This document shows positions 18,988 through 34,117 of a stretch of DNA of 34,603 nucleotides, one piece after another. Below the pieces are notes generated by a model. That model was given only the letters and a program-made list of their open reading frames with translations, had not been told where the DNA came from and made no database searches. Numbering within the stretch: position 1 is the first letter of the stretch; every line of letters starts with the position of its first letter. Both the position numbers and the translations under genes were made by a program. Origin of the DNA: an uncultured Petrotoga sp. (GTDB taxonomy: Bacteria > Thermotogota > Thermotogae > Petrotogales > Petrotogaceae); contig CALMRR010000129.1 of assembly GCA_937871925.1 (NCBI GenBank), positions 1 to 34,603 of the forward strand, read 5' to 3'.

Positions 18988-19016
18988 ACAAGAGGCGTAA
19001 GCCTCTTGTTTATTTT
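18981..19016. terminator. bidirectional terminator shared by the amylase and fliD
   Basis: Arms 18981-18996 and 19001-19016 are perfect 16-base inverted repeats (core ACAAGAGGC/GCCTCTTGT) around a GTAA loop, with A/T tracts on both ends. It includes the stop codon of the amylase and the first two bases of the fliD stop codon, so it serves both converging genes. Confidence 0.9.
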
Positions 19017-21294
19017 ATTGATTGTTGTTACTATTATTTCCCAGCTTGCTCAAAAGGTACGAACCTTGGATACTCATTTTGGAAACTGCCTGCTCCATCT
19101 TGGAAAAAGTCTGGTAAAGATCCGCTTCTTTTTTCTGAAGTTTATTAATTTCATTTACAAGCCATTTGGCGATCCTATTCATTTCCTTTCCTATAGTACC
19201 GTTAGTGCCAGAGATCTGATCTATCGTACCGCTGTACTTTGTAACCTGCCATATATAATCCTTGACCTGGGTAACTACTCCTGAGTTCTTGGAATAAATG
19301 GGTTTGTTGGCTGAATCATAGCCCACAACCACTTCTTTTTCCTCGGATATAATATTCCACACATCAATGGGATTTTCCTTAAGCTTGGCTTTTAAAGTGG
19401 CTTCATCAACAGAAAGATGGCCTTTGAGCGTATTTTCATAAGTTTTTCCGGCATCTCCGTTTATTATACCTATCTGCGAAAATGAAGAATACTTAGGTTT
19501 ATCGTCTGAATACCAATTCACGGTACCGTATGAAATACTTCTCATCTTCATGAAAATATTCTGAAGATTGTTGTCTCCTCTGAGAACCACTTCAAGTTTT
19601 TGCTCTTCCGTCATATCCTCGGTAATTGCATCAGGATCTTTTGGCCTCGTCGGATTGCTGACATCGATGGTCGTTGATGCAGGTGTCTTTTTATATCTAA
19701 CATAGAGGAAGTCCATAAGCTCATTGTACTTTGTAACGTATTCTTTTATTTTCTCAACCGATTTATCAACATCCTGTTCCACATCAATCTTGGTGTATGT
19801 TGAAGATGTCTCCGAAAGACTTTTTAGATTTATGGTTATGTCTTCAAAATTAACATTGTTGGTCCAGGAAGTCACAGTCATAGCTCCTGTTCCCGATGCT
19901 GATGAAGAAACTTTAACAATCGCAGCCTCACCGGCACTTATAGTACCTGCAAGAGTTGCCTCGTCAGGCTCAAGCATCTTAAGAGCTACAAGAAGTTTCT
20001 TCCCGCCGCTGTCCTTTCCGCTTATACTTATATCGGCAGGACCGCCTTCTCTGTTTTCAATAAAAAACCTTCCGCTGCTGTCAACAGAAGCCGTAGCACC
20101 AGCTTGAGATCCGTTTATCTTAGCAATAAGAGTTGTAAGGGAATCACTCGATGTAAAAGTAATATCCACACCGTTTACAGTAATAGTATTTTCTATCGAG
20201 CTTACCCCGGAAACATAGTTGCTGAAAGCCTTAGACTGTCCTACAGACCATACAGGCTCTGTGCTTTCCAGACCGCTGAGGGCTGTAGAGGTCTGATACT
20301 TATAGCTCACGCTGTCCATGCTTTTTCCATCTAAAGATGAATCACTGAATACACTGAACTTACCGGTAGTATAGTTTATAAAACCTACTACTGTACCGTC
20401 AACTTTTTTTAAGTTACCTCCGCCGTCATCTTTTAAAGTCTGGAGTCCTCCATTGAGACTGAAAGTAATACTTCCTGGTATTAGCGGAAGATTGTTCAGA
20501 GTATCGTCTGCGGGAGTAGGATAGGTTCCCCCTACAACTTCACCGCTTACCGTGGTTATGACTTTTCCTGTTGAATCAGCTGCACCGTTAAGTTTAAAAA
20601 CATCAAAAAAGTTTGAAGTATCCGAACTTGACCCAAGTATAATCTTATTCGTGTCTCCCTGCTTTATAAGTTGAAGCTTTCCATTGTTTAACTCCGCAGT
20701 CATCGCTCCGGAGAACTCTGTGTTTATTTTATCCAGTATTTGCTGGACAGTAGGATCTCCTGTCGAAAGCGCCGCCATATCGATACTGACATTTTTAGTA
20801 ATGTTTCCATTGGAGTTCACTGTTTTTATAGTAAAGGTGTTTACCGACGGATCTCCGCTTGAAGAAGAAGGAGTGGTGGTATACGTCAGCTGACTAAATT
20901 TTTTGGTAAGCAGAACATCGTCTCTTATAAAGTTCGGACCGCTTGCTGCAGTATACTTTGAAGGTGATGCCATCTGCACAACATTAACATATAAGGATCT
21001 GTTTATAGCTGCCGGCTGCGCGGTAACTGTTATGATTTTTTCATCCGCAGACGTAACTTTCTTTGGTATAAGAGAACTCTGCACTCTGAAGTCAGCAAGA
21101 TACGACCAAAAATCGCTGAGTTTCTTATCCACGGCCTGCCATGCCTTCTGTTGATATGAGAGCTTATCAAACTTAGTCTGCTCCCTTTCCACAGGAACTA
21201 ATTTCTTTTCCATTATTTTGTTTATCATAGACTTGGTATCTATACCGGTAAGACCGGCCATCTGCATTGAACCAAGATATGGATTGTCAGCCAT
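19015..21294 (-). CDS. fliD: flagellar filament cap protein FliD (hook-associated protein 2)
   Basis: The 759-residue protein starts with the FliD N-terminus (GLTGIDTKSMINKIMEKKLVPVE, followed by the coiled-coil FDKLSYQQKAWQAVDKKLSDF) and ends with the matching coiled-coil region (MNRIAKWLVNEINKLQKKEADLYQTFSKMEQAVSKM) that packs against it as domain D0. The middle is a long threonine/serine-rich, beta-rich variable region, longer than in many FliD proteins. It should cap the flagellar filament and guide flagellin assembly after export; there is no Sec signal peptide, as expected. The ATG follows GGAGGTATAAA. It is divergent from fliS and preceded by a sigma-28-like promoter. Confidence 0.93.
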   Translation of the reverse strand: MADNPYLGSMQMAGLTGIDTKSMINKIMEKKLVPVEREQTKFDKLSYQQKAWQAVDKKLSDFWSYLADFRVQSSLIPKKVTSADEKIITVTAQPAAINRSLYVNVVQMASPSKYTAASGPNFIRDDVLLTKKFSQLTYTTTPSSSSGDPSVNTFTIKTVNSNGNITKNVSIDMAALSTGDPTVQQILDKINTEFSGAMTAELNNGKLQLIKQGDTNKIILGSSSDTSNFFDVFKLNGAADSTGKVITTVSGEVVGGTYPTPADDTLNNLPLIPGSITFSLNGGLQTLKDDGGGNLKKVDGTVVGFINYTTGKFSVFSDSSLDGKSMDSVSYKYQTSTALSGLESTEPVWSVGQSKAFSNYVSGVSSIENTITVNGVDITFTSSDSLTTLIAKINGSQAGATASVDSSGRFFIENREGGPADISISGKDSGGKKLLVALKMLEPDEATLAGTISAGEAAIVKVSSSASGTGAMTVTSWTNNVNFEDITINLKSLSETSSTYTKIDVEQDVDKSVEKIKEYVTKYNELMDFLYVRYKKTPASTTIDVSNPTRPKDPDAITEDMTEEQKLEVVLRGDNNLQNIFMKMRSISYGTVNWYSDDKPKYSSFSQIGIINGDAGKTYENTLKGHLSVDEATLKAKLKENPIDVWNIISEEKEVVVGYDSANKPIYSKNSGVVTQVKDYIWQVTKYSGTIDQISGTNGTIGKEMNRIAKWLVNEINKLQKKEADLYQTFSKMEQAVSKMSIQGSYLLSKLGNNSNNNQ

Positions 21295-21341
21295 TGAGTT
21301 TATACCTCCAGATTCTTTATTTATTTAAATATCTAAGTTTA

Positions 21342-21369
21342 TTATCGACTGTAACTACAGGTTACTTTA
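21342..21369 (-). promoter_or_regulatory. sigma-28 (FliA)-type promoter of fliD
   Basis: On the minus strand TAAAGTAA (21362-21369) and GTCGATAA (21342-21349) are 12 bases apart. The flagellar sigma-28 consensus is TAAAGTTT-N11-GCCGATAA, so both boxes match well, with one extra base in the spacer. The start codon is 47 bases downstream. The spacer contains the near-palindrome CTGTA-AC-TACAG. Confidence 0.6.
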
Positions 21370-21412
21370 TGCTATAATTTTAATATACTGCTTTTGCATT
21401 TACGGACGATAA
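21370..21412 (+). promoter_or_regulatory. candidate promoters of fliS
   Basis: An extended -10 TG-C-TATAAT lies at 21370-21378, 69 bases before the start codon. Closer to the gene, GACGATAA (21405-21412) resembles the sigma-28 -10 box but lacks a clear TAAA box 15 bases upstream. Either could drive fliS. Confidence 0.45.
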
Positions 21413-21447
21413 AATGATATGACTATTTAGAAAAACGGGGTGAAATT

Positions 21448-21978
21448 ATGCCGGAAAATACTAACAATGCAAAAGTAATCACTAACGGAACTTACAGCAA
21501 GTTTATAAAACCGCAGATAATAAACAATAGCCAGGTACGCATTGATCAGCTCTCACAGAAACCACGGGAAGAACCAAAGGAAAGACGCGATCCGGCGGAG
21601 CAGTATCTTGAAAATTCGATACTTACAGCAAGTCCTCAGGAACTGGTGCTCATGCTTTTCAACGGCGCAATAAAGTTCATGAACCAGTATATTGACTCTG
21701 TTTCAAAAAAAGAGTATGCAAATGCGCACACAGCGATAATACGTGCCCAGGATATATTCATAGAATTGATGTCTACTCTTAAGCCCGAATATGAGATTTC
21801 AGGAAATCTTTTCGGTCTTTACACTTTTATACTTGACAACCTTGAAAAAGCCAACTTTAAGAAAGAAACCGAGCCGGTTTCACAAATGATAGAACTTACA
21901 AAAGATCTGCGCGATACATGGGAGGAAATTGTTAAAAATCCGAACGGAAAACCACCTGAGAGCCAGACAGAAAAATAA
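21448..21978 (+). CDS. fliS: flagellar export chaperone FliS, with N-terminal extension
   Basis: Residues from about 48 onwards (DPAEQYLENSILTASPQELVLMLFNGAIKFM) match the start and core of FliS, the four-helix chaperone that binds the C-terminus of flagellin and stops it polymerising in the cytoplasm. The rest of the helical bundle continues to about residue 162. The total of 176 residues exceeds the usual 125-135 because of a hydrophilic, Asn/Gln-rich N-terminal extension of about 47 residues and a short tail. The start is supported by GGGGTG upstream of ATG 21448, so the extension appears to be translated. It is divergent from fliD and cotranscribed with the small gene at 22013. Confidence 0.9.
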   Translation: MPENTNNAKVITNGTYSKFIKPQIINNSQVRIDQLSQKPREEPKERRDPAEQYLENSILTASPQELVLMLFNGAIKFMNQYIDSVSKKEYANAHTAIIRAQDIFIELMSTLKPEYEISGNLFGLYTFILDNLEKANFKKETEPVSQMIELTKDLRDTWEEIVKNPNGKPPESQTEK

Positions 21979-26343: not shown

Positions 26344-28671
26344 ATGAAGTATCTTCTTGAAGATCTCTTGGATATATCGGCACTTAAAAAAGTGCTTACC
26401 AATTTTTATGAGTTCTCAGAAGTTCCGGTAACTTTGATAAACTCTGTCGGCCGCCCTCTGATAAGCATAGGCTGGATTGATATCTGCACAAAATTTCATA
26501 GGAAAAATCCTTTTTCTTCCGCTAGATGTACGGAAAGTGATTTTGAGCTCTTTAATTCATTGCTCAAGGAAAATTCTCATGTGTTAAAAAAATGCAGTAA
26601 CGGCCTTCTTGAACTGGGTTCAAAGATAACCATCGATAATGTTTTCATGGGAAGCATCATTGTCGGACAGTTCCTTACGGAAAAACCGGATATAAACTTC
26701 TTCATGGAACAGGCAAGGAACTACGGCTTCAATGAACCCGAATACATTCTTGCAGTAAAAAAGATTCCATTAATATCTCATGAAAAAATCAATGCTATAA
26801 TTCAGTTCGTGACAAGTTTGACCTTTATGATAGCCCAGGTTGGTTATAAACGCTTAAAAGAACTTGAACTTATAAATATCATGAACATTACCCAGGACAG
26901 ACTGACAAACGTTGAAGGATTTTACAGCCAGCTCCTTGATATCCTGCCCGATCCATGTATAATTATGGGACTGTCGGGAGAAATCAGGACAGCATCCAAA
27001 AAGACTCTTAAACTGTTTGATTATACCTTGGAATCCTTTTCAAAAATGAAAATTACCCAGGTTATTGAACCGCAAAGTATCAAAGATGCTTCTGACGATC
27101 TTGCTGCTTTGAAGTCATGCCTTGAAATAACTCCAAAAGAGTACTGCCTTAAAACCTCAAAAGGACAGATATTCTATGCCTCTGTAAACTCCAAATTACT
27201 TTATGATATCAATGGATCTCCGAACGCTATTGTCTGTTCACTGCGCAAGACAGAGAATTTTTCTGAAAATGATGAAAGCTCTTTGAAAGTACAGCTTTCA
27301 CTTTCCAATCTATTTGATATAAACTTAATTTCGGCATTGTATTTGAAGCTTCAGCTTCGCAGCCTGAAAAATGAAGACAAAGATGCTCTTTATGCAGCTA
27401 ATGGTTTCTCATGGTCTTCTGCGGACGGAAAAGAAAGCATGTTCAGCCTTAAAGATACGATATTAGCAACCGCCCAAGCATACAGACCCAAGATAGGCAA
27501 GCTTAACATCACCATGGAAAACAGCAGCGATATGGCACCGGATTTGATTATCTCAGATTTTCATGCTTTGGCACGAATACTTTACGATATTTTTGCCGTT
27601 ATTGAAAGAATCTCAGGCAATCAAGTCATAAATATAAACGTTTCGACTTTCAATTTAACTCCCCAGAAGTTGGGTATATCTTTTACACTTGACAGTTCGG
27701 TTTTTTCTATTGACGAGTTTTCAGGAACGTATCGTTTTTCTTGGACAGATTATAGCTTGGCGGATGATCTCTTTTTCCGGCTTCCGTATCTTAAAGCTCT
27801 CGTTTCTTCTATGAAGCCTTTATTTGGAGAGATGCAAGTGCTTTTCACTAAATCATCAAGCAGATTAACACTGGAGTTTGCTTTCAAAAACTTCCAAATT
27901 GACACAGCTTTATCTTCTGAATGCTTTGAAAATCAGTCCGGAGGGAAAAAGAGTATGTCTGACTTGAATGTTCTTGTTGCTGAAGATGATTTCATTAACC
28001 AAAAACTTATCGGCAATATTCTTGCTAAAGAAAAAATATCCTGCTTCATTGTATCCGATGGACAGAAGGCTGTGGATGAGTATATCCGCAATCCTTCTTA
28101 CGATCTTATTTTAATGGATATACAGATGCCTGTTATGAACGGCATAGATGCCAGTAACGCCATAAGAAAAATAAATCCAACGGTTCCTATTGTTGCTCTT
28201 ACCGCTGATCTTTCGTCAGAAGATAAAGACAGGATCAAAGCTGCCGGAATTGATAAACTTTTGGTAAAACCCTTTCAGACAAGTGATCTTATTGAGACAT
28301 TTAAAATCATGAATATTTGCACCAGCAGTTCAGAAAAAAACATAAAAGAGCTTATTGGAAAGGTTCAGGAAGAAACAGGACTTGTGGAAAGTGAGGTTCA
28401 GGAGTTGCTTGGCGAATATGTCAAATACACTTCATCTGAATTTGAAATTCTCGGAGAGATGATTGAAAAAAATGATTTTGAAGGTATTTCAAAGCTTTCT
28501 CACAAATTGAAAGGCTCGTCCCTTTCTCTAAGAATATCAAATATTGCTGAAATTTTACAGAAAATGGATGAAGATGCAAAGAATAAAAACAATCTTAATT
28601 TCCAGGACTATCTTGATGAACTGGACATATATCTTAAAGCCATAAAAAACGGGCTTAGTGGACAGAGGTGA
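26344..28671 (+). CDS. PocR-PAS-degenerate histidine kinase-REC-HPt hybrid protein
   Basis: This is a 775-residue cytoplasmic protein. PocR sensory domain about 1-175, with the three typical cysteines Cys48, Cys62 and Cys84 and GSIIVGQFL; PAS about 190-305; a kinase-like region 313-515; receiver about 541-655 (Asp548/Asp549, phospho-acceptor Asp592 in LMDIQMP, Thr620, Lys642); HPt about 680-770 with His720 in LSHKLKGSS. The kinase-like region follows the HisKA-HATPase layout (FSLKDTILATAQAYRPKIGKLNI, then DFHALARILYDIFAVIERISG), but no phospho-acceptor His occurs between 146 and 408, the N-box asparagine is replaced and no DxGxG or GTGLGL box is found. It probably relays phosphate rather than autophosphorylating. 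The HD-GYP gene follows after 4 bases. Confidence 0.88.
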   Translation: MKYLLEDLLDISALKKVLTNFYEFSEVPVTLINSVGRPLISIGWIDICTKFHRKNPFSSARCTESDFELFNSLLKENSHVLKKCSNGLLELGSKITIDNVFMGSIIVGQFLTEKPDINFFMEQARNYGFNEPEYILAVKKIPLISHEKINAIIQFVTSLTFMIAQVGYKRLKELELINIMNITQDRLTNVEGFYSQLLDILPDPCIIMGLSGEIRTASKKTLKLFDYTLESFSKMKITQVIEPQSIKDASDDLAALKSCLEITPKEYCLKTSKGQIFYASVNSKLLYDINGSPNAIVCSLRKTENFSENDESSLKVQLSLSNLFDINLISALYLKLQLRSLKNEDKDALYAANGFSWSSADGKESMFSLKDTILATAQAYRPKIGKLNITMENSSDMAPDLIISDFHALARILYDIFAVIERISGNQVININVSTFNLTPQKLGISFTLDSSVFSIDEFSGTYRFSWTDYSLADDLFFRLPYLKALVSSMKPLFGEMQVLFTKSSSRLTLEFAFKNFQIDTALSSECFENQSGGKKSMSDLNVLVAEDDFINQKLIGNILAKEKISCFIVSDGQKAVDEYIRNPSYDLILMDIQMPVMNGIDASNAIRKINPTVPIVALTADLSSEDKDRIKAAGIDKLLVKPFQTSDLIETFKIMNICTSSSEKNIKELIGKVQEETGLVESEVQELLGEYVKYTSSEFEILGEMIEKNDFEGISKLSHKLKGSSLSLRISNIAEILQKMDEDAKNKNNLNFQDYLDELDIYLKAIKNGLSGQR

Positions 28672-28675
28672 GATA

Positions 28676-29761
28676 ATGGATGACTTTCTGAGCTTTGCAC
28701 AAGAAACCCAAAACACTTGCGGTTATACCAAAGAAGCATGGAAAATTCTCATAGTTGATGATGATGTGATGATACATAAAATAACCAAAATAGTACTTAA
28801 GGATATGACTTTCAGAAATAAAAACATCGAATTTCTCAGCGCTTACAGTGAAAGGCAGGCAAGAGAAGTACTTTTCAGGGAAGACGATATTGCCGTAGTG
28901 CTTTTAGATGTAGTGATGGAGGAAAACGACTCCGGTCTTAAGCTGGTAGAGTACATACGTAATGAACTGAAAAACAGTATGCTCCGTATAATTCTCAGAA
29001 CCGGACATCCTGGTTCGGCACCGGAAGAAAAAGTTGTGCTTGAATACGATATAAACGATTACAAAGAAAAAACAGAGCTGACCAAAGGCAAGCTTTTTAC
29101 TTCAATTATAAACGCTCTCAGAAGTTATGATGATATGGTGCAGCTTGATTTAAAACGTAAAGAACTGAAAGAGACTCAAAAAGATATAATAATGACACTT
29201 TCGGAAATAGCTGAAACCCGTTCGAAGGAAACAGGAAATCATGTAAAAAGAGTATCAGAATTTGCACAGCTAATAGGAAAAAAATACGGTTTTTCAGATG
29301 AAGACAATGAAATACTTAAAAATGCCGCAGCTCTGCACGATATAGGCAAAATAGTAATAGCTGACAGTATTCTTCTGGCTCCCAGACAGTTGACAACTGT
29401 AGAGTTTGATATAATGAAAAATCATACCGTTTATGGGTATGATCTTTTGAAAAGTTCAAAACAACAGATGCTTCAAAGTGCTTCAGTAGTTGCTCTGCAA
29501 CATCATGAAAGGTATGACGGAAAAGGTTATCCGAACGGTCTTTCCAAAGACGAAATACATATATTTGCACGTATCGTATCCATAGCCGATGTCTTTGATG
29601 CACTTAGCACTGACAGGGTATACAGAAAGGCATGGACTCTTGACAATACACTGGAATATATGAAACGTGAACGTGAAAAACAGTTTGATCCGTTCCTTTT
29701 GGACATTTTTATAAACAGCATAGATACAGTAAAGTCCATAATGAATAAGCTCAACGACTGA
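28676..29761 (+). CDS. response regulator with HD-GYP c-di-GMP phosphodiesterase domain
   Basis: ATG 28676 (AGAGGTG upstream) gives 361 residues. The receiver (about 22-150) has VDDD and phospho-acceptor Asp78 (VLLDVVME), and its LRTGHPGSAPEEKVVLEYDINDYKEK stretch is typical of receivers fused to HD-GYP. The HD-GYP domain (about 175-350) has all hallmark residues: His189 (GNHVKRV), HD at 221-222 (ALHDIGKI), His250, HHERYDGKGYP at 276-286 and Asp305 (IADVFDAL). It should be an active c-di-GMP phosphodiesterase controlled by phosphorylation, opposing the cyclase at 10550. It follows the PocR hybrid gene by 4 bases, so that protein's HPt is the likely phosphate donor. It converges on the histidine kinase gene with an 11-base overlap. 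Confidence 0.93.
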   Translation: MDDFLSFAQETQNTCGYTKEAWKILIVDDDVMIHKITKIVLKDMTFRNKNIEFLSAYSERQAREVLFREDDIAVVLLDVVMEENDSGLKLVEYIRNELKNSMLRIILRTGHPGSAPEEKVVLEYDINDYKEKTELTKGKLFTSIINALRSYDDMVQLDLKRKELKETQKDIIMTLSEIAETRSKETGNHVKRVSEFAQLIGKKYGFSDEDNEILKNAAALHDIGKIVIADSILLAPRQLTTVEFDIMKNHTVYGYDLLKSSKQQMLQSASVVALQHHERYDGKGYPNGLSKDEIHIFARIVSIADVFDALSTDRVYRKAWTLDNTLEYMKREREKQFDPFLLDIFINSIDTVKSIMNKLND

Positions 29762-31754
29762 CAGAAGATACAGGAAATGAAACGGTAAAGACTGTTCCTT
29801 CGTTTTTGATACTTTGACATTTAATACTGCCCTTGAGCGTCTGGGTGACAAGGTTATAAACTATGCTTAGTCCCAGACCGGTATTGCCTTTACTCCTGTT
29901 AGTAGTAAAAAACGGATCGTATATTTTCTCTATATCTTGCTGAGATATCCCGTGACCGTTATCGCTGTAAACCAGTTCAATCATCTGTTTATTCTTATCA
30001 GACTGATCGGTTATAAGAACAGCTTTTATTTTTATCGTACGTTTCTCGAGCCCTTCAAATCCATGAATAACCGAGTTGGAAACAAGGTTGGTAATTATTT
30101 GCGACAAAGCTCCTGGGAAGCTTTCTATATCAAGATTTTCATCACAGTCTATTTCTGTACGGTGACCGTTTTTCTTCAGAGGATAGTTCATGGTAAGAAC
30201 TATATCCTCAAGATACTTTTTTAAGTTAAACTTCCTTTTTTCTTGACTGGACTGATCCACAGAGATTTCTTTGAGACTGGCCACCAAACCGGCAGCCTTT
30301 TTAAGATTCAAAACTATTATATCCGAAGTTTCAATATTTTTCCTCAGGAACTCCTCAAAACAGGATCTTGTAAGTTCTCCTTTACTGTGCATATTCAGTA
30401 TTTTCCTGTTCTCGTCAGATATATAGGTACTTCCCACCAGGCCGTTTCCAAGAGGTGTGTTTATTTCGTGGGCTATCCCACCGACAAGCTTACCCAGAGC
30501 AGCCATCTTTTCGCTTTCAATAAGGCTTTTCTGTGTTTTTCCCAGTTCATTCAGAGCTGCCTGAAGCTCTTGGTTCATAGCCAAAAGCTCCTGATTCATC
30601 GCAACAAGGCCCTCGTTTGCTTCATCCAACTGCGCATAAGCTTTTTCAAGATTCATAGTCCGCTGCTGTATAAGCTTTTCAAGATTATTGTTAAGCTCCA
30701 TAAGCCTTTTCTGAGTTTTTATTCTTTCCGTTATATCTTGCACAAAAGAAAAATTGTACTTCTTATCTTTGTACACAAGATAGTTTGAAGTAACTTCAAC
30801 ATCGTAAAGAGAACCGTCTTTCCTTTTCTGCTTTCTCTGAAATACCATGCTTTGCTCATCTTTTATTTTTTCCATGTGACTGCTCCACATCTGCTCATCC
30901 AAATCCGGATCTATATCAAACACAGTGAGTTTTCCAAACTCCTGTTCACTGTAGCCAAGATTCTTCCTCGCCGAACTGTTTGCATAGACTATACTTCCGT
31001 CGGTTTTTATCCAGTAAGCTTCTATCATAGACTTTTCAACCGCAAACTTGGAAACCTCCAATGCAGTATCAAGCCTTTCCAGTCTGTAAGAGCTCTCTCT
31101 AAGCTTTGTCTCACGGTTTTTTATCTCCAAAACCATCTTTGCAAAGCTTTCCTCTATCTTTAGGAACTCTCCGCAACTCTTCTCAATCTTTTCATCGTAT
31201 CTGCCGTTAGAAATATTCTGAATATAAGCCATAAGCTTGTCCAAAGGTTTTTTAATAAACCTAGAAAACAAAAATGAAGATGAAATCTGTATAACTGCTA
31301 TAAGAACCACCACAAGCAACAAAATCATGGCTATACTGTCGACAAAATCCCTTATCAGCGTATCATATCCAAAAGAAACCTTTAGTTTCCCCAGTGCTTT
31401 ATTCCCGTAGAATATGGTTTTAGAAACAGATATATGATTAGGCGGTACTTTTTTTTCCTTAATTAACACTATACTATCGTTGATATCGTATACAGTTATG
31501 CTTTTCACACTCTCATCAAGAAAAAAAGTATCCGCAGCTTTTTCCATCCCCTGAAAATCCTTCTCTTGAAGTTCTAAAGACATAAGTTCTGAAAGATTTG
31601 CTGTGCTTGATTCATACAAACTTATGAAATCCTTTTTTCTTAGGTCGTAGCTCCACAAAACACCTATCATTCCAACAACAAAAACAGATAAAGCTACTAT
31701 TGCACCAAGATAAAATGAAAACTTTGAAGCTATAGACATACCGTTTTTTTCCAT
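29751..31754 (-). CDS. membrane-bound PAS sensor histidine kinase
   Basis: The 667-residue protein has a transmembrane helix at about 12-34, an extracytoplasmic sensor region of about 100 residues, a second helix at about 139-161 and a HAMP-like linker. A PAS domain with PAC follows (about 232-343, RKDGSLYDVEVT). A coiled coil (345-415) contains two seven-residue repeats AMNQELL/AMNQELQ. HisKA has the phospho-acceptor His429 (GGIAHEINTPLG). HATPase keeps the N box (NLVSNSVIHGF), DNGHGI and GNTGLGLSIV, so the kinase should be active. It has no receiver of its own, so it must pass phosphate to separate receivers, several of which are encoded nearby. ATG follows AGGGGTAAGAGA. Confidence 0.92.
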   Translation of the reverse strand: MEKNGMSIASKFSFYLGAIVALSVFVVGMIGVLWSYDLRKKDFISLYESSTANLSELMSLELQEKDFQGMEKAADTFFLDESVKSITVYDINDSIVLIKEKKVPPNHISVSKTIFYGNKALGKLKVSFGYDTLIRDFVDSIAMILLLVVVLIAVIQISSSFLFSRFIKKPLDKLMAYIQNISNGRYDEKIEKSCGEFLKIEESFAKMVLEIKNRETKLRESSYRLERLDTALEVSKFAVEKSMIEAYWIKTDGSIVYANSSARKNLGYSEQEFGKLTVFDIDPDLDEQMWSSHMEKIKDEQSMVFQRKQKRKDGSLYDVEVTSNYLVYKDKKYNFSFVQDITERIKTQKRLMELNNNLEKLIQQRTMNLEKAYAQLDEANEGLVAMNQELLAMNQELQAALNELGKTQKSLIESEKMAALGKLVGGIAHEINTPLGNGLVGSTYISDENRKILNMHSKGELTRSCFEEFLRKNIETSDIIVLNLKKAAGLVASLKEISVDQSSQEKRKFNLKKYLEDIVLTMNYPLKKNGHRTEIDCDENLDIESFPGALSQIITNLVSNSVIHGFEGLEKRTIKIKAVLITDQSDKNKQMIELVYSDNGHGISQQDIEKIYDPFFTTNRSKGNTGLGLSIVYNLVTQTLKGSIKCQSIKNEGTVFTVSFPVSSVSR

Positions 31755-31882: not shown

Positions 31883-32629
31883 ATAGTAGCTCTGATTCTT
31901 CAAAAGCTGTTCCTGCGGAACATCTCTTAGTACTTTGGCGGGCGAGCCTATATAAACTTTACCTGCCAAGGTACTTCTGGTTACAACGCTTGCAGCTGCT
32001 ACAAGGGTATCCTCAGCAATCACCACACCAGGCAGTATAGTAGAGTTAGCCCCTATTCTTGCACCTTTTTTCAATGTCGGCCCTTTGAAATATTTTTTTC
32101 TTTCTTCTGTTCTCCCCAAGAAATTATCGTTGGTAAAGGTAACCTCCGGAGCAATGAAACAGTAGTCCTCTATAACGGATATTGCCGTGATATATGCATT
32201 AGTCTCGACTTTTACGTACCTTCCTATAACAGTTTTATTTTCAACGCTCACACCACGTCCTATAATAGTAAACTCTCCGATGGAAACCTCTTCTCTCACG
32301 CTTGCAAGATCACCTATGAAAACATGGCTTTGTATTACAGCTCCAGCATATAGTATACAGCCCGCACCTACCGTAACACACTCGCCTATAGCAAGCGGAT
32401 CAAGTAAAACGTCCTTGGTAACAGCCGAGTTGCTTGCCTTGAAAGGTCTTTTGCCCAAAACAGTACTATCGCCTATCACGCTTGACCTTCCTATTTTAGT
32501 ACCTTCATGGATAATTACAAAATCACCTATAACTGAATTTTCACCTATTACTACACCGTCATCAATCACAACATTCCTTCCGATTCTAACGTTATCTCCT
32601 ATAACAGCCTTTTCTGATATGCTGCTCAT
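31874..32629 (-). CDS. left-handed beta-helix acyltransferase (sugar N-acetyltransferase-like)
   Basis: The 251-residue protein is made largely of hexapeptide repeats ([LIV]-G-x-x-x-x), for example VIGDNVRIGRNVVIDDGVVIG at the start, so it folds as a left-handed beta helix and probably forms trimers. The C-terminal part (FIAPEVTFTNDNFLGR near 158-173, then PTLKKGARIGANSTILPGVVIAEDTLVAAASVVTRS and IGSPAKVLRDVP) is like nucleotide-sugar N-acetyltransferases of the WlbB/QdtC type, which use acetyl-CoA and contribute to surface polysaccharides. The long N-terminal run of coils makes it larger than WlbB. The ATG overlaps the HPt stop codon as ATGA and follows GGAGGGATACT, so it is translated together with signalling genes. 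Confidence 0.85.
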   Translation of the reverse strand: MSSISEKAVIGDNVRIGRNVVIDDGVVIGENSVIGDFVIIHEGTKIGRSSVIGDSTVLGKRPFKASNSAVTKDVLLDPLAIGECVTVGAGCILYAGAVIQSHVFIGDLASVREEVSIGEFTIIGRGVSVENKTVIGRYVKVETNAYITAISVIEDYCFIAPEVTFTNDNFLGRTEERKKYFKGPTLKKGARIGANSTILPGVVIAEDTLVAAASVVTRSTLAGKVYIGSPAKVLRDVPQEQLLKNQSYYKE

Positions 32630-32946
32630 AGTATCCCTCCCGATTTTTGAACTGCTTCCGCCCTGCGTATAAGCTCCGCAATGCTGTCCTTATTCTGTGA
32701 AATAGCCGCCTTTTCAATATCAGAAAACAAAACCGCAATTTCATCGTACATTATATTGGCACTTGCACCCTTAAGTGAGTGCGCACAGTTTTTGATCTGT
32801 GTGTAATCAAGCACATGCAATGATTTTTTTAGTTCCTCCAACTTTTGAATAAATAACTGACGAAAATCCTTTATTATATCCAAAGCTTCTTCTTTTGTAA
32901 GCCCATATCTCAAAACCAATTTTTCGCAAAGTTCGTTTTCTGTCAT
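32626..32946 (-). CDS. stand-alone HPt phosphotransfer protein
   Basis: This 106-residue protein consists of a single HPt four-helix domain. The phospho-accepting His56 lies in CAHSLKGASANI, the conserved HxLKGxS motif, so it should be functional. Its job is to carry a phosphoryl group between receiver domains, for example to or from the receiver of the upstream REC-phosphatase, the PocR hybrid or the HD-GYP protein. The ATG is preceded by GGAGGAGATTTT. The gene lies 22 bases after the phosphatase gene and overlaps the acyltransferase gene by four bases. Which partner it serves is not shown by the sequence. Confidence 0.88.
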   Translation of the reverse strand: MTENELCEKLVLRYGLTKEEALDIIKDFRQLFIQKLEELKKSLHVLDYTQIKNCAHSLKGASANIMYDEIAVLFSDIEKAAISQNKDSIAELIRRAEAVQKSGGIL

Positions 32947-32968: not shown

Positions 32969-34117
32969 CTAGAGAATTTTTAAAACCATGATACTGATGT
33001 CATCGGAGCATCTTTTTCCCTGACACTTAAGAAAATTTTGCTTTATTTGCCAAACTGTGTCTTCAGCAGTCATTAAGTGCATATCAAGCTTGTTCATAAA
33101 ACCGATGAGTTGTTTTACCCAATCTCTTACGGTAAGCTGGTCATCATCAGCATTGTTTTGAAACCCATCGCTGTACAGAATTATAAAGTCGCCTGCTGCT
33201 ACCTCCGTCTGCGTTTGAAAATATTCTGCCTCTTTCATAATACCTACAATGAACCCATTTTCCTCTATAAGAAAAAAATCCTTGGATACAGCTTTGTAAA
33301 CCAGAGGATATGGATGTCCTGCGTTGCAGAAGGTAAGACAGTTATTCTTTATATTCCCTATAAATGCCGTAAAGCTAAAGTACAGATTGCCTTTTATACT
33401 ATCACAAAAAAAATCGTTCATCCTTTTTATAACCCCGGCAGGAGTGTTCTCTAACTTGATATAATTTTCAAACATGACCTTTACCATGGAAGATATCATC
33501 GAAGCAGCCACTCCATGTCCGGAAACATCGGCTATTATGAACCAAAGTCCATCCTGGTTTTCTATACAGTCAAAAAAATCGCCGCCAACCTTTGAGGCCG
33601 GAAGATAATCACCGTACATCTGAGCTGTCTTAAGCTCTTTGGTATTATTTATTATCATATGCTGAAATATGTTGGCAAGTTCCATCTCCTCCTGCATCAT
33701 ACTGTTCAGCTCCATAATGGTTCTGATATGTTCAACTTCCTTAAGTGCATTTTTTACTTTTAGCGGAAGTATAAACTCTATCTGTTCCGATGTAAAGGGC
33801 TTTGTAAAATAGTCATCTGCCCCCAGCTCAAGAGCTTTTTTTACATATTCAGTCTCATCTATGGCTGAACTAACTATTACTGGAATATTACTGTATCTAT
33901 CACTGCTTTTTATCTCCTTCAAAAACCCAAAACCATCAAGCTTGGGCATCAAAAGATCTAAAAAAATTAGATCTACTTGGTTATGATGCATGATTTCAAG
34001 GGCCTGAACGCCATCAGAGGCTTCATAGAAATTCAGTTCTGTCATATTCTTTGATATTACTGCCTTTATAAGTTTGCGGTTGATTGAAATATCATCCACA
34101 ATAAGTATAGCTTTCAC
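32969..34117 (-). CDS. response regulator with PP2C-type (RsbU/SpoIIE) phosphatase domain
   Basis: The 382-residue protein has an N-terminal receiver (1-120; Asp8/Asp9, phospho-acceptor Asp54 in LIFLDLLMPKLDG, Lys106 in TKPF), a helical linker, and a PP2C/SpoIIE domain from about 165. Metal ligands are present: Asp180 (GGDFFD), Asp197 (ADVSGHG), Asp317 (YSDGF) and Asp372/Asp373 (SDDIS). Such proteins dephosphorylate anti-sigma-factor antagonists and thereby control a sigma factor or another output by partner switching. No anti-sigma factor or antagonist is in this window. The start codon is GTG at 34117 behind TGGAGGAAAGACA. It heads an operon with HPt and an acyltransferase. Confidence 0.92.
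   Translation of the reverse strand: MKAILIVDDISINRKLIKAVISKNMTELNFYEASDGVQALEIMHHNQVDLIFLDLLMPKLDGFGFLKEIKSSDRYSNIPVIVSSAIDETEYVKKALELGADDYFTKPFTSEQIEFILPLKVKNALKEVEHIRTIMELNSMMQEEMELANIFQHMIINNTKELKTAQMYGDYLPASKVGGDFFDCIENQDGLWFIIADVSGHGVAASMISSMVKVMFENYIKLENTPAGVIKRMNDFFCDSIKGNLYFSFTAFIGNIKNNCLTFCNAGHPYPLVYKAVSKDFFLIEENGFIVGIMKEAEYFQTQTEVAAGDFIILYSDGFQNNADDDQLTVRDWVKQLIGFMNKLDMHLMTAEDTVWQIKQNFLKCQGKRCSDDISIMVLKIL

Follow-up and report, generated by a model that had tools for sequence, protein, structure and literature searches.

The window analysed here is a stretch of 34,603 nucleotides from an uncultured Petrotoga sp. (GenBank assembly GCA_937871925.1, contig CALMRR010000129.1), and its forward strand encodes a 775-aa protein in which a PocR sensor domain and a weak PAS domain precede an apparently eroded histidine kinase core, a receiver domain (REC), and an HPt domain. 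The source assembly (2.3 Mb, 522 contigs) is 94.9% complete with 6.0% contamination, and contamination is an improbable source of the locus, since a sister genome of the same genus (G020) carries the same gene neighbourhood at 97-99% DNA identity. The layout of the protein is as follows.

26344-28671, forward strand: gene of the 775-aa PocR-PAS-eroded core-REC-HPt protein (ORF, Pfam)
26362-26847, forward strand: PocR sensor domain, residues 7-168 (Pfam E 1.5e-39; genome search match at the same coordinates)
26920-27246, forward strand: weak PAS domain, residues 193-301 (Pfam E 0.002, short of its cut-off)
27250-27429, forward strand: position of the DHp/HisKA region, residues 303-362, shortened, without histidine and unrecognised by profile
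27430-27711, forward strand: first half of a HATPase_c remnant, residues 363-456, with D415/V419 in the N-box and the G1 box lost (HMM, hhalign, order of elements in the AF2 model)
27712-27888, forward strand: probable second half of the HATPase remnant, residues 457-515, with the ATP lid/G2 missing (hhalign to residue 500, order of elements in the AF2 model)
27970-28299, forward strand: receiver domain, residues 543-652, with D592, T620, and K642 intact (Pfam E 1.2e-23, residue positions)
28405-28650, forward strand: HPt domain, residues 688-769, with H720 intact (Pfam E 6.7e-6; genome search match at 28402-28650)

The domains on both sides of the core are well preserved. PocR scores 136 bits with Pfam, PF00072 and PF01627 both lie above their cut-offs at the C terminus, and the residues of the relay are kept in the receiver (E547/D548/D549, D592, T620, K642) as well as in the HPt domain (H720-K-L-K-G), with Asp592, Lys642, and His720 at the positions that a sequence-only reading of the locus had given for them. 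In NCBIfam, the REC-HPt part is matched best by BarA, LetS, and ArcB. Because PocR, receiver, and HPt are all kept, the erosion is, as far as motifs and profiles tell, concentrated in the kinase core. The maximum mean hydropathy over 19 residues is 1.5 in this protein versus 3.1 in the membrane kinase encoded nearby.

Residues 313-515, which correspond to positions 27280-27888, give no HisKA or HATPase match with Pfam, neither within the whole protein nor when 27280-27890 is searched alone, unlike the neighbouring kinase, in which Pfam readily detects HATPase_c. Histidines occur only at residues 52, 79, 146, 407, and 720, so that there is none from 147 to 406; in the best alignment (MAFFT), Leu320 occupies the place of the H-box histidine in the DHp-like stretch. 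Alignment to a profile of intact cores places D415 and V419 at the first and second asparagine of the N-box. The DxGxG motif reads S451-S-V-F-S455, or D450-S-S-V-F if taken one residue earlier, both glycines being lost either way, and the GTGLGL (G2) segment is lost in a gap of 8 aa that follows YSLADD (residues 470-475, F-box-like). The sequence-only reading had described a kinase core stripped of its catalytic motifs and flanked by an intact PocR sensor and REC-HPt pair, with valine at the N-box and neither DxGxG nor GTGLGL, and our alignments bear this out for the histidine, N-box, G1, and G2 alike; its histidine-free interval (146 to 408) needs correcting at one end only, the next histidine being residue 407. 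A frameshift or assembly artefact was considered as the source of the lost boxes and rejected, as the other frames hold no H-box or kinase box.

The core appears to lack the residues for ATP binding or histidine phosphorylation, from which we infer that it is catalytically inactive. Other pseudokinases are known to catalyse without canonical residues, and on that model the core might be imagined to retain some activity, or to act as an unconventional kinase, through an altered nucleotide site; we regard this as extremely unlikely for a core that is without a phosphoacceptor histidine and has lost the N, G1, and G2 boxes all together.

For the ancestry of the core we used a profile HMM built from 106 intact hybrid-kinase cores in the fetched loci. 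Residues 363-456 match it with 14.0 bits, a score that one of 20,000 shuffled versions of the region equalled, while other parts of the protein reach about 1 bit or less and three intact hybrid kinases of the genus (two from this genome, one from the sister genome) reach 288-310 bits. A local hhalign match covers residues 364-500 (P = 2.6e-4) and locates both the final helix and the F-box, where FSQAD is aligned with YSLADD. When residues 303-362 (DHp-like) and 457-515 (second half) are each taken alone, they score no better with the profile than shuffles do; the former were therefore rejected as a recognisable HisKA on these shuffle statistics, despite a persuasive-looking MAFFT alignment. 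Furthermore, the FSLKDTILATAQ segment aligns with HATPase helix 1, not with HisKA. The HisKA-HATPase layout that the sequence-only reading had followed through residues 313-515 thus survives in its HATPase part (363-456) and not in its HisKA part, and the comparison with HATPase by profile or structure for which it had called does give a match at 363-456, where the objection that no such match exists fails.

An AlphaFold model made with no alignment is poor (pLDDT 45), yet its helices and strands already follow one another as in HATPase, and Foldseek returns for it weak matches, among them ATPase domains (those of AgrC, VanS, and NtrB) alongside unrelated folds. An AF2 model with a 33-row alignment has a pLDDT of about 59-83 for residues 361-450 (about 50-83 across the putative HATPase fold) and the HATPase order of elements; as its alignment included intact kinases, this model favours the ex-kinase reading but is not independent of it. 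The best match of this full model in a Foldseek search of the PDB is the hybrid kinase ShkA (E = 1.3e-10, 411 columns), most of the remaining top matches being receivers. A PDB sequence search with the core gave no meaningful match; this empty result and that of Pfam, the nonsignificant scores of DHp and second half, and the low pLDDT of the single-sequence model are what one might expect if the core were a domain of other origin whose layout happens to look like that of HATPase. We nevertheless consider that very unlikely, given a profile match in the right place and order at a level seen in one of the 20,000 shuffles, the hhalign result, and the location of the core, which follows PAS and precedes REC-HPt just as the kinase core of intact hybrids does. 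At the level of sequence, HATPase ancestry is thus demonstrated for residues 363-456 and likely for residues 457-515, and the DHp is, by the same profile, lost, shortened, or unrecognisable.

The eroded-core variant is known so far from one genome, with a REC-HPt counterpart in the sister genome of the same genus. No orthologue of the eroded core was found among 103 genomes of the phylum, in viral contigs, or among 80 loci kept from GTDB contigs, where the matches owed their scores to the receiver or to intact HATPase-REC. With no relative found that shares this erosion, the case can bear only limited weight. An intact membrane PAS-HK-REC-HPt hybrid in the sister genome (L172 1237-3801, contig C201) is 36% identical over residues 541-749 and is possibly an intact paralogue. 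The PocR relatives from the same order (L085-L091, sister family f2) are single chains of PocR, PAS/GAF, and HD-GYP of up to about 900 aa; they were rejected as homologues of the eroded core, being PocR-HD-GYP proteins without a kinase core. They would be direct PocR-to-c-di-GMP phosphodiesterase sensors, and from a separate side they hint at a link between PocR sensing and HD-GYP output. Outside the phylum, the eight genomes searched yielded four PocR proteins in three genomes, two with an intact kinase core and two with no intact-core match.

The sister genome holds only residues 516-775 of the protein (contig C244, L096 1-3), its contig starting inside the gene at residue 516, and residues 1-515 were found nowhere else in that assembly, which is about 80% complete. 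The shared part is 95% identical, with 13 amino-acid versus 9 silent changes, and departs from neutrality (P = 0.02). Its omega is 0.40, as compared with 0.12-0.15 for the HD-GYP, kinase, hexapeptide transferase, and REC-SpoIIE genes (Fisher P = 0.049 on counts, with three of the four neighbours pooled). The REC-HPt part looks selected, perhaps less strongly than its neighbours, and since its omega exceeds theirs, relaxed constraint is possible. This bears on the idea of slow gene decay, in which the kinase died first and the remainder is eroding with no present function. The higher omega, the lack of a core orthologue in the phylum, and the missing first 515 residues in the sister assembly would all suit such a decay; we think it unlikely, since the gene runs through 775 codons without a stop, PocR still scores 136 bits, the relay keeps every one of its residues, the REC-HPt part is not neutral, and the sister contig of an incomplete genome simply ends inside the gene.

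The following genes surround it and include its possible partners.

28676-29761, forward strand: REC-HD-GYP response regulator, a c-di-GMP phosphodiesterase by motifs (4-base spacing, Pfam, HDIGK and HHERYDGKGYP motifs)
29751-31754, reverse strand: intact membrane PAS histidine kinase (Pfam, intact boxes, hydrophobic segment; paired relative in G019, a genome of the same family)
32626-32946, reverse strand: stand-alone HPt protein of 106 aa (Pfam E 2.2e-7)
32969-34117, reverse strand: REC-SpoIIE (PP2C) regulator (Pfam)

The REC-HD-GYP gene lies 4 bases downstream of the 775-aa gene (stop at 28671, ATG at 28676), as had been noted from the sequence, and the two genes are probably in the same operon. 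The HD-GYP gene and the membrane kinase gene run towards each other and share their last 11 bases (29751-29761), an overlap that is kept in the sister genome. Beyond the membrane kinase, near the stand-alone HPt and REC-SpoIIE genes, lies also the hexapeptide transferase gene; the stand-alone HPt and REC-SpoIIE pair is conserved in the sister genome. This pair, an HPt gene adjoining that of a REC-phosphatase (SpoIIE), resembles the HptB-HsbR module of Pseudomonas in gene pairing only, and the Pseudomonas module is fed by hybrid kinases encoded elsewhere (PMC5085249). About 4-7 kb upstream of the 775-aa gene, flagellar fliD (reverse strand) and fliS (forward strand) are divergent (19015-21978).

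In G019, a tight operon (L158 5443-9282) encodes a histidine kinase, a REC-HD-GYP protein that carries an additional stretch in its middle, and another REC protein; the kinase gene overlaps the REC-HD-GYP gene by 8 bases. This kinase is 44% identical to the membrane kinase of the window over the DHp-HATPase part, and the two HD-GYP receivers are 52% identical. Because these relatives of both proteins overlap in one operon, the membrane kinase of the window probably phosphorylates the HD-GYP regulator directly. With respect to HPt domains, a genome search found three in the assembly, namely those of a CheA-like protein, the 775-aa protein, and the stand-alone HPt. At least two intact hybrid kinases in the assembly end in a receiver without an HPt of their own and therefore would need one in trans.

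We consider it moderately probable that the 775-aa protein is a former BarA/ArcB-type ternary hybrid kinase that now works as an RcsD-like, sensor-attached REC-HPt module feeding or draining phosphate. Its ancestor would have been a ternary hybrid (sensor-HK-REC-HPt) whose kinase core then lost the ATP-binding and histidine-phosphorylating residues, the protein being kept as a cytosolic REC-HPt transfer module; because the kinase motifs are missing, it would be unable to start a phosphorelay by itself. Since the relay residues are intact, Asp592 and His720 may exchange phosphate with other receivers, taking it from, or returning it to, receivers that other kinases have charged, with, as the likeliest partners, the regulator REC-HD-GYP of its probable operon and the receiver domains in which the two HPt-less intact hybrid kinases end. 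PocR and PAS would set the efficiency of transfer or drain, and hence the c-di-GMP phosphodiesterase activity. In the feeding direction, phosphate would pass from a hybrid or the neighbouring kinase to the 775-aa protein and on to the HD-GYP receiver; in the draining direction, it would pass from the phosphorylated HD-GYP receiver to His720, then to Asp592, and finally to water. Draining is slightly ahead of feeding, because the HD-GYP regulator has a probable direct kinase next door, and this probable kinase of its own also counts against the explanation as a whole, as do the higher omega of the REC-HPt part and the lack of a core orthologue in which the same losses could be seen to be conserved.

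Either direction may also be stated alone. If the protein only drains, the neighbouring membrane kinase would charge the HD-GYP regulator and the 775-aa protein would remove phosphate by a PocR-tuned reverse relay, a reading that we hold to be doubtful although a serious candidate. It fits the overlap of the kinase and REC-HD-GYP relatives in one operon of G019, draining requires no kinase core, and work on EvgS describes reversible transfer at the HPt, with most of the phosphate released by the hybrid receiver (PMC4494823). On the other hand, the two HPt-less hybrid kinases with their need for a trans HPt favour some feeding via this or the stand-alone HPt. The sequence-only reading had proposed a phosphorelay hub that takes phosphate from another kinase and gates it by PocR/PAS signals. 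Spelled out as a forward relay, this would mean that Asp592 is charged by another kinase (or His720 by a hybrid receiver) and that the HD-GYP receiver then obtains the phosphate from His720. The eroded core and the intact PocR and REC-HPt on which it drew are confirmed; the operon spacing and the HPt-less hybrid kinases of the genome agree with it as well, and RcsD, which has an inactive kinase domain and an HPt and relays phosphate from RcsC to RcsB (PMC13317618), offers a precedent. The pairing in G019, however, makes it probable that the HD-GYP regulator has a direct kinase. Moreover, the pairing of receivers with kinases is usually specific, and such a forward hub seems rather unlikely to us. 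A ligand-gated soluble valve, in which metabolite-bound PocR acts via the dead core as a mechanical linker and toggles the REC-HPt pair between feeding and draining an HD-GYP phosphodiesterase that has its own kinase, is a tentative suggestion to which we give little credence as yet.

The feed-or-drain REC-HPt module that we prefer can be set against known systems. BarA, LetS, and ArcB, the top NCBIfam matches of the REC-HPt part, are ternary hybrids with the same HK-REC-HPt order, and the 775-aa protein differs from them in being without any kinase box. In DivL of Caulobacter, a tyrosine replaces the histidine, and the protein acts on the kinase CckA by contact and is without REC-HPt. Two papers present DivL as related to histidine kinases but put to use without the normal output of a kinase (PMC4211667, PMC9430884), and in this the two proteins are alike. 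With its eroded core, no recognisable DHp, and a kept REC-HPt pair, the 775-aa protein is, by its predicted domains, not a DivL-type pseudokinase. It shares more with RcsD, which also combines a hybrid-kinase-like layout, an inactive kinase domain (here, lost motifs), and an intact HPt, that of RcsD moving phosphate between other proteins (PMC13317618). Yet RcsD is membrane-bound with a periplasmic domain, whereas the 775-aa protein is predicted to be cytosolic with PocR/PAS; RcsD has an ABL domain where an intact receiver is found here; and its partner is RcsB, that of the 775-aa protein probably being the HD-GYP regulator. The protein is RcsD-like in its presumed working and, judged by these domains, not a member of RcsD.

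Few kinase-dead histidine kinases with relay domains kept are known, RcsD being the standard one. If our interpretation is true, a second independent case, here with a cytosolic metabolite sensor, would show that a signal-gated phosphate valve can arise repeatedly by loss of the kinase and retention of REC-HPt, and PocR sensing would be linked to c-di-GMP breakdown.
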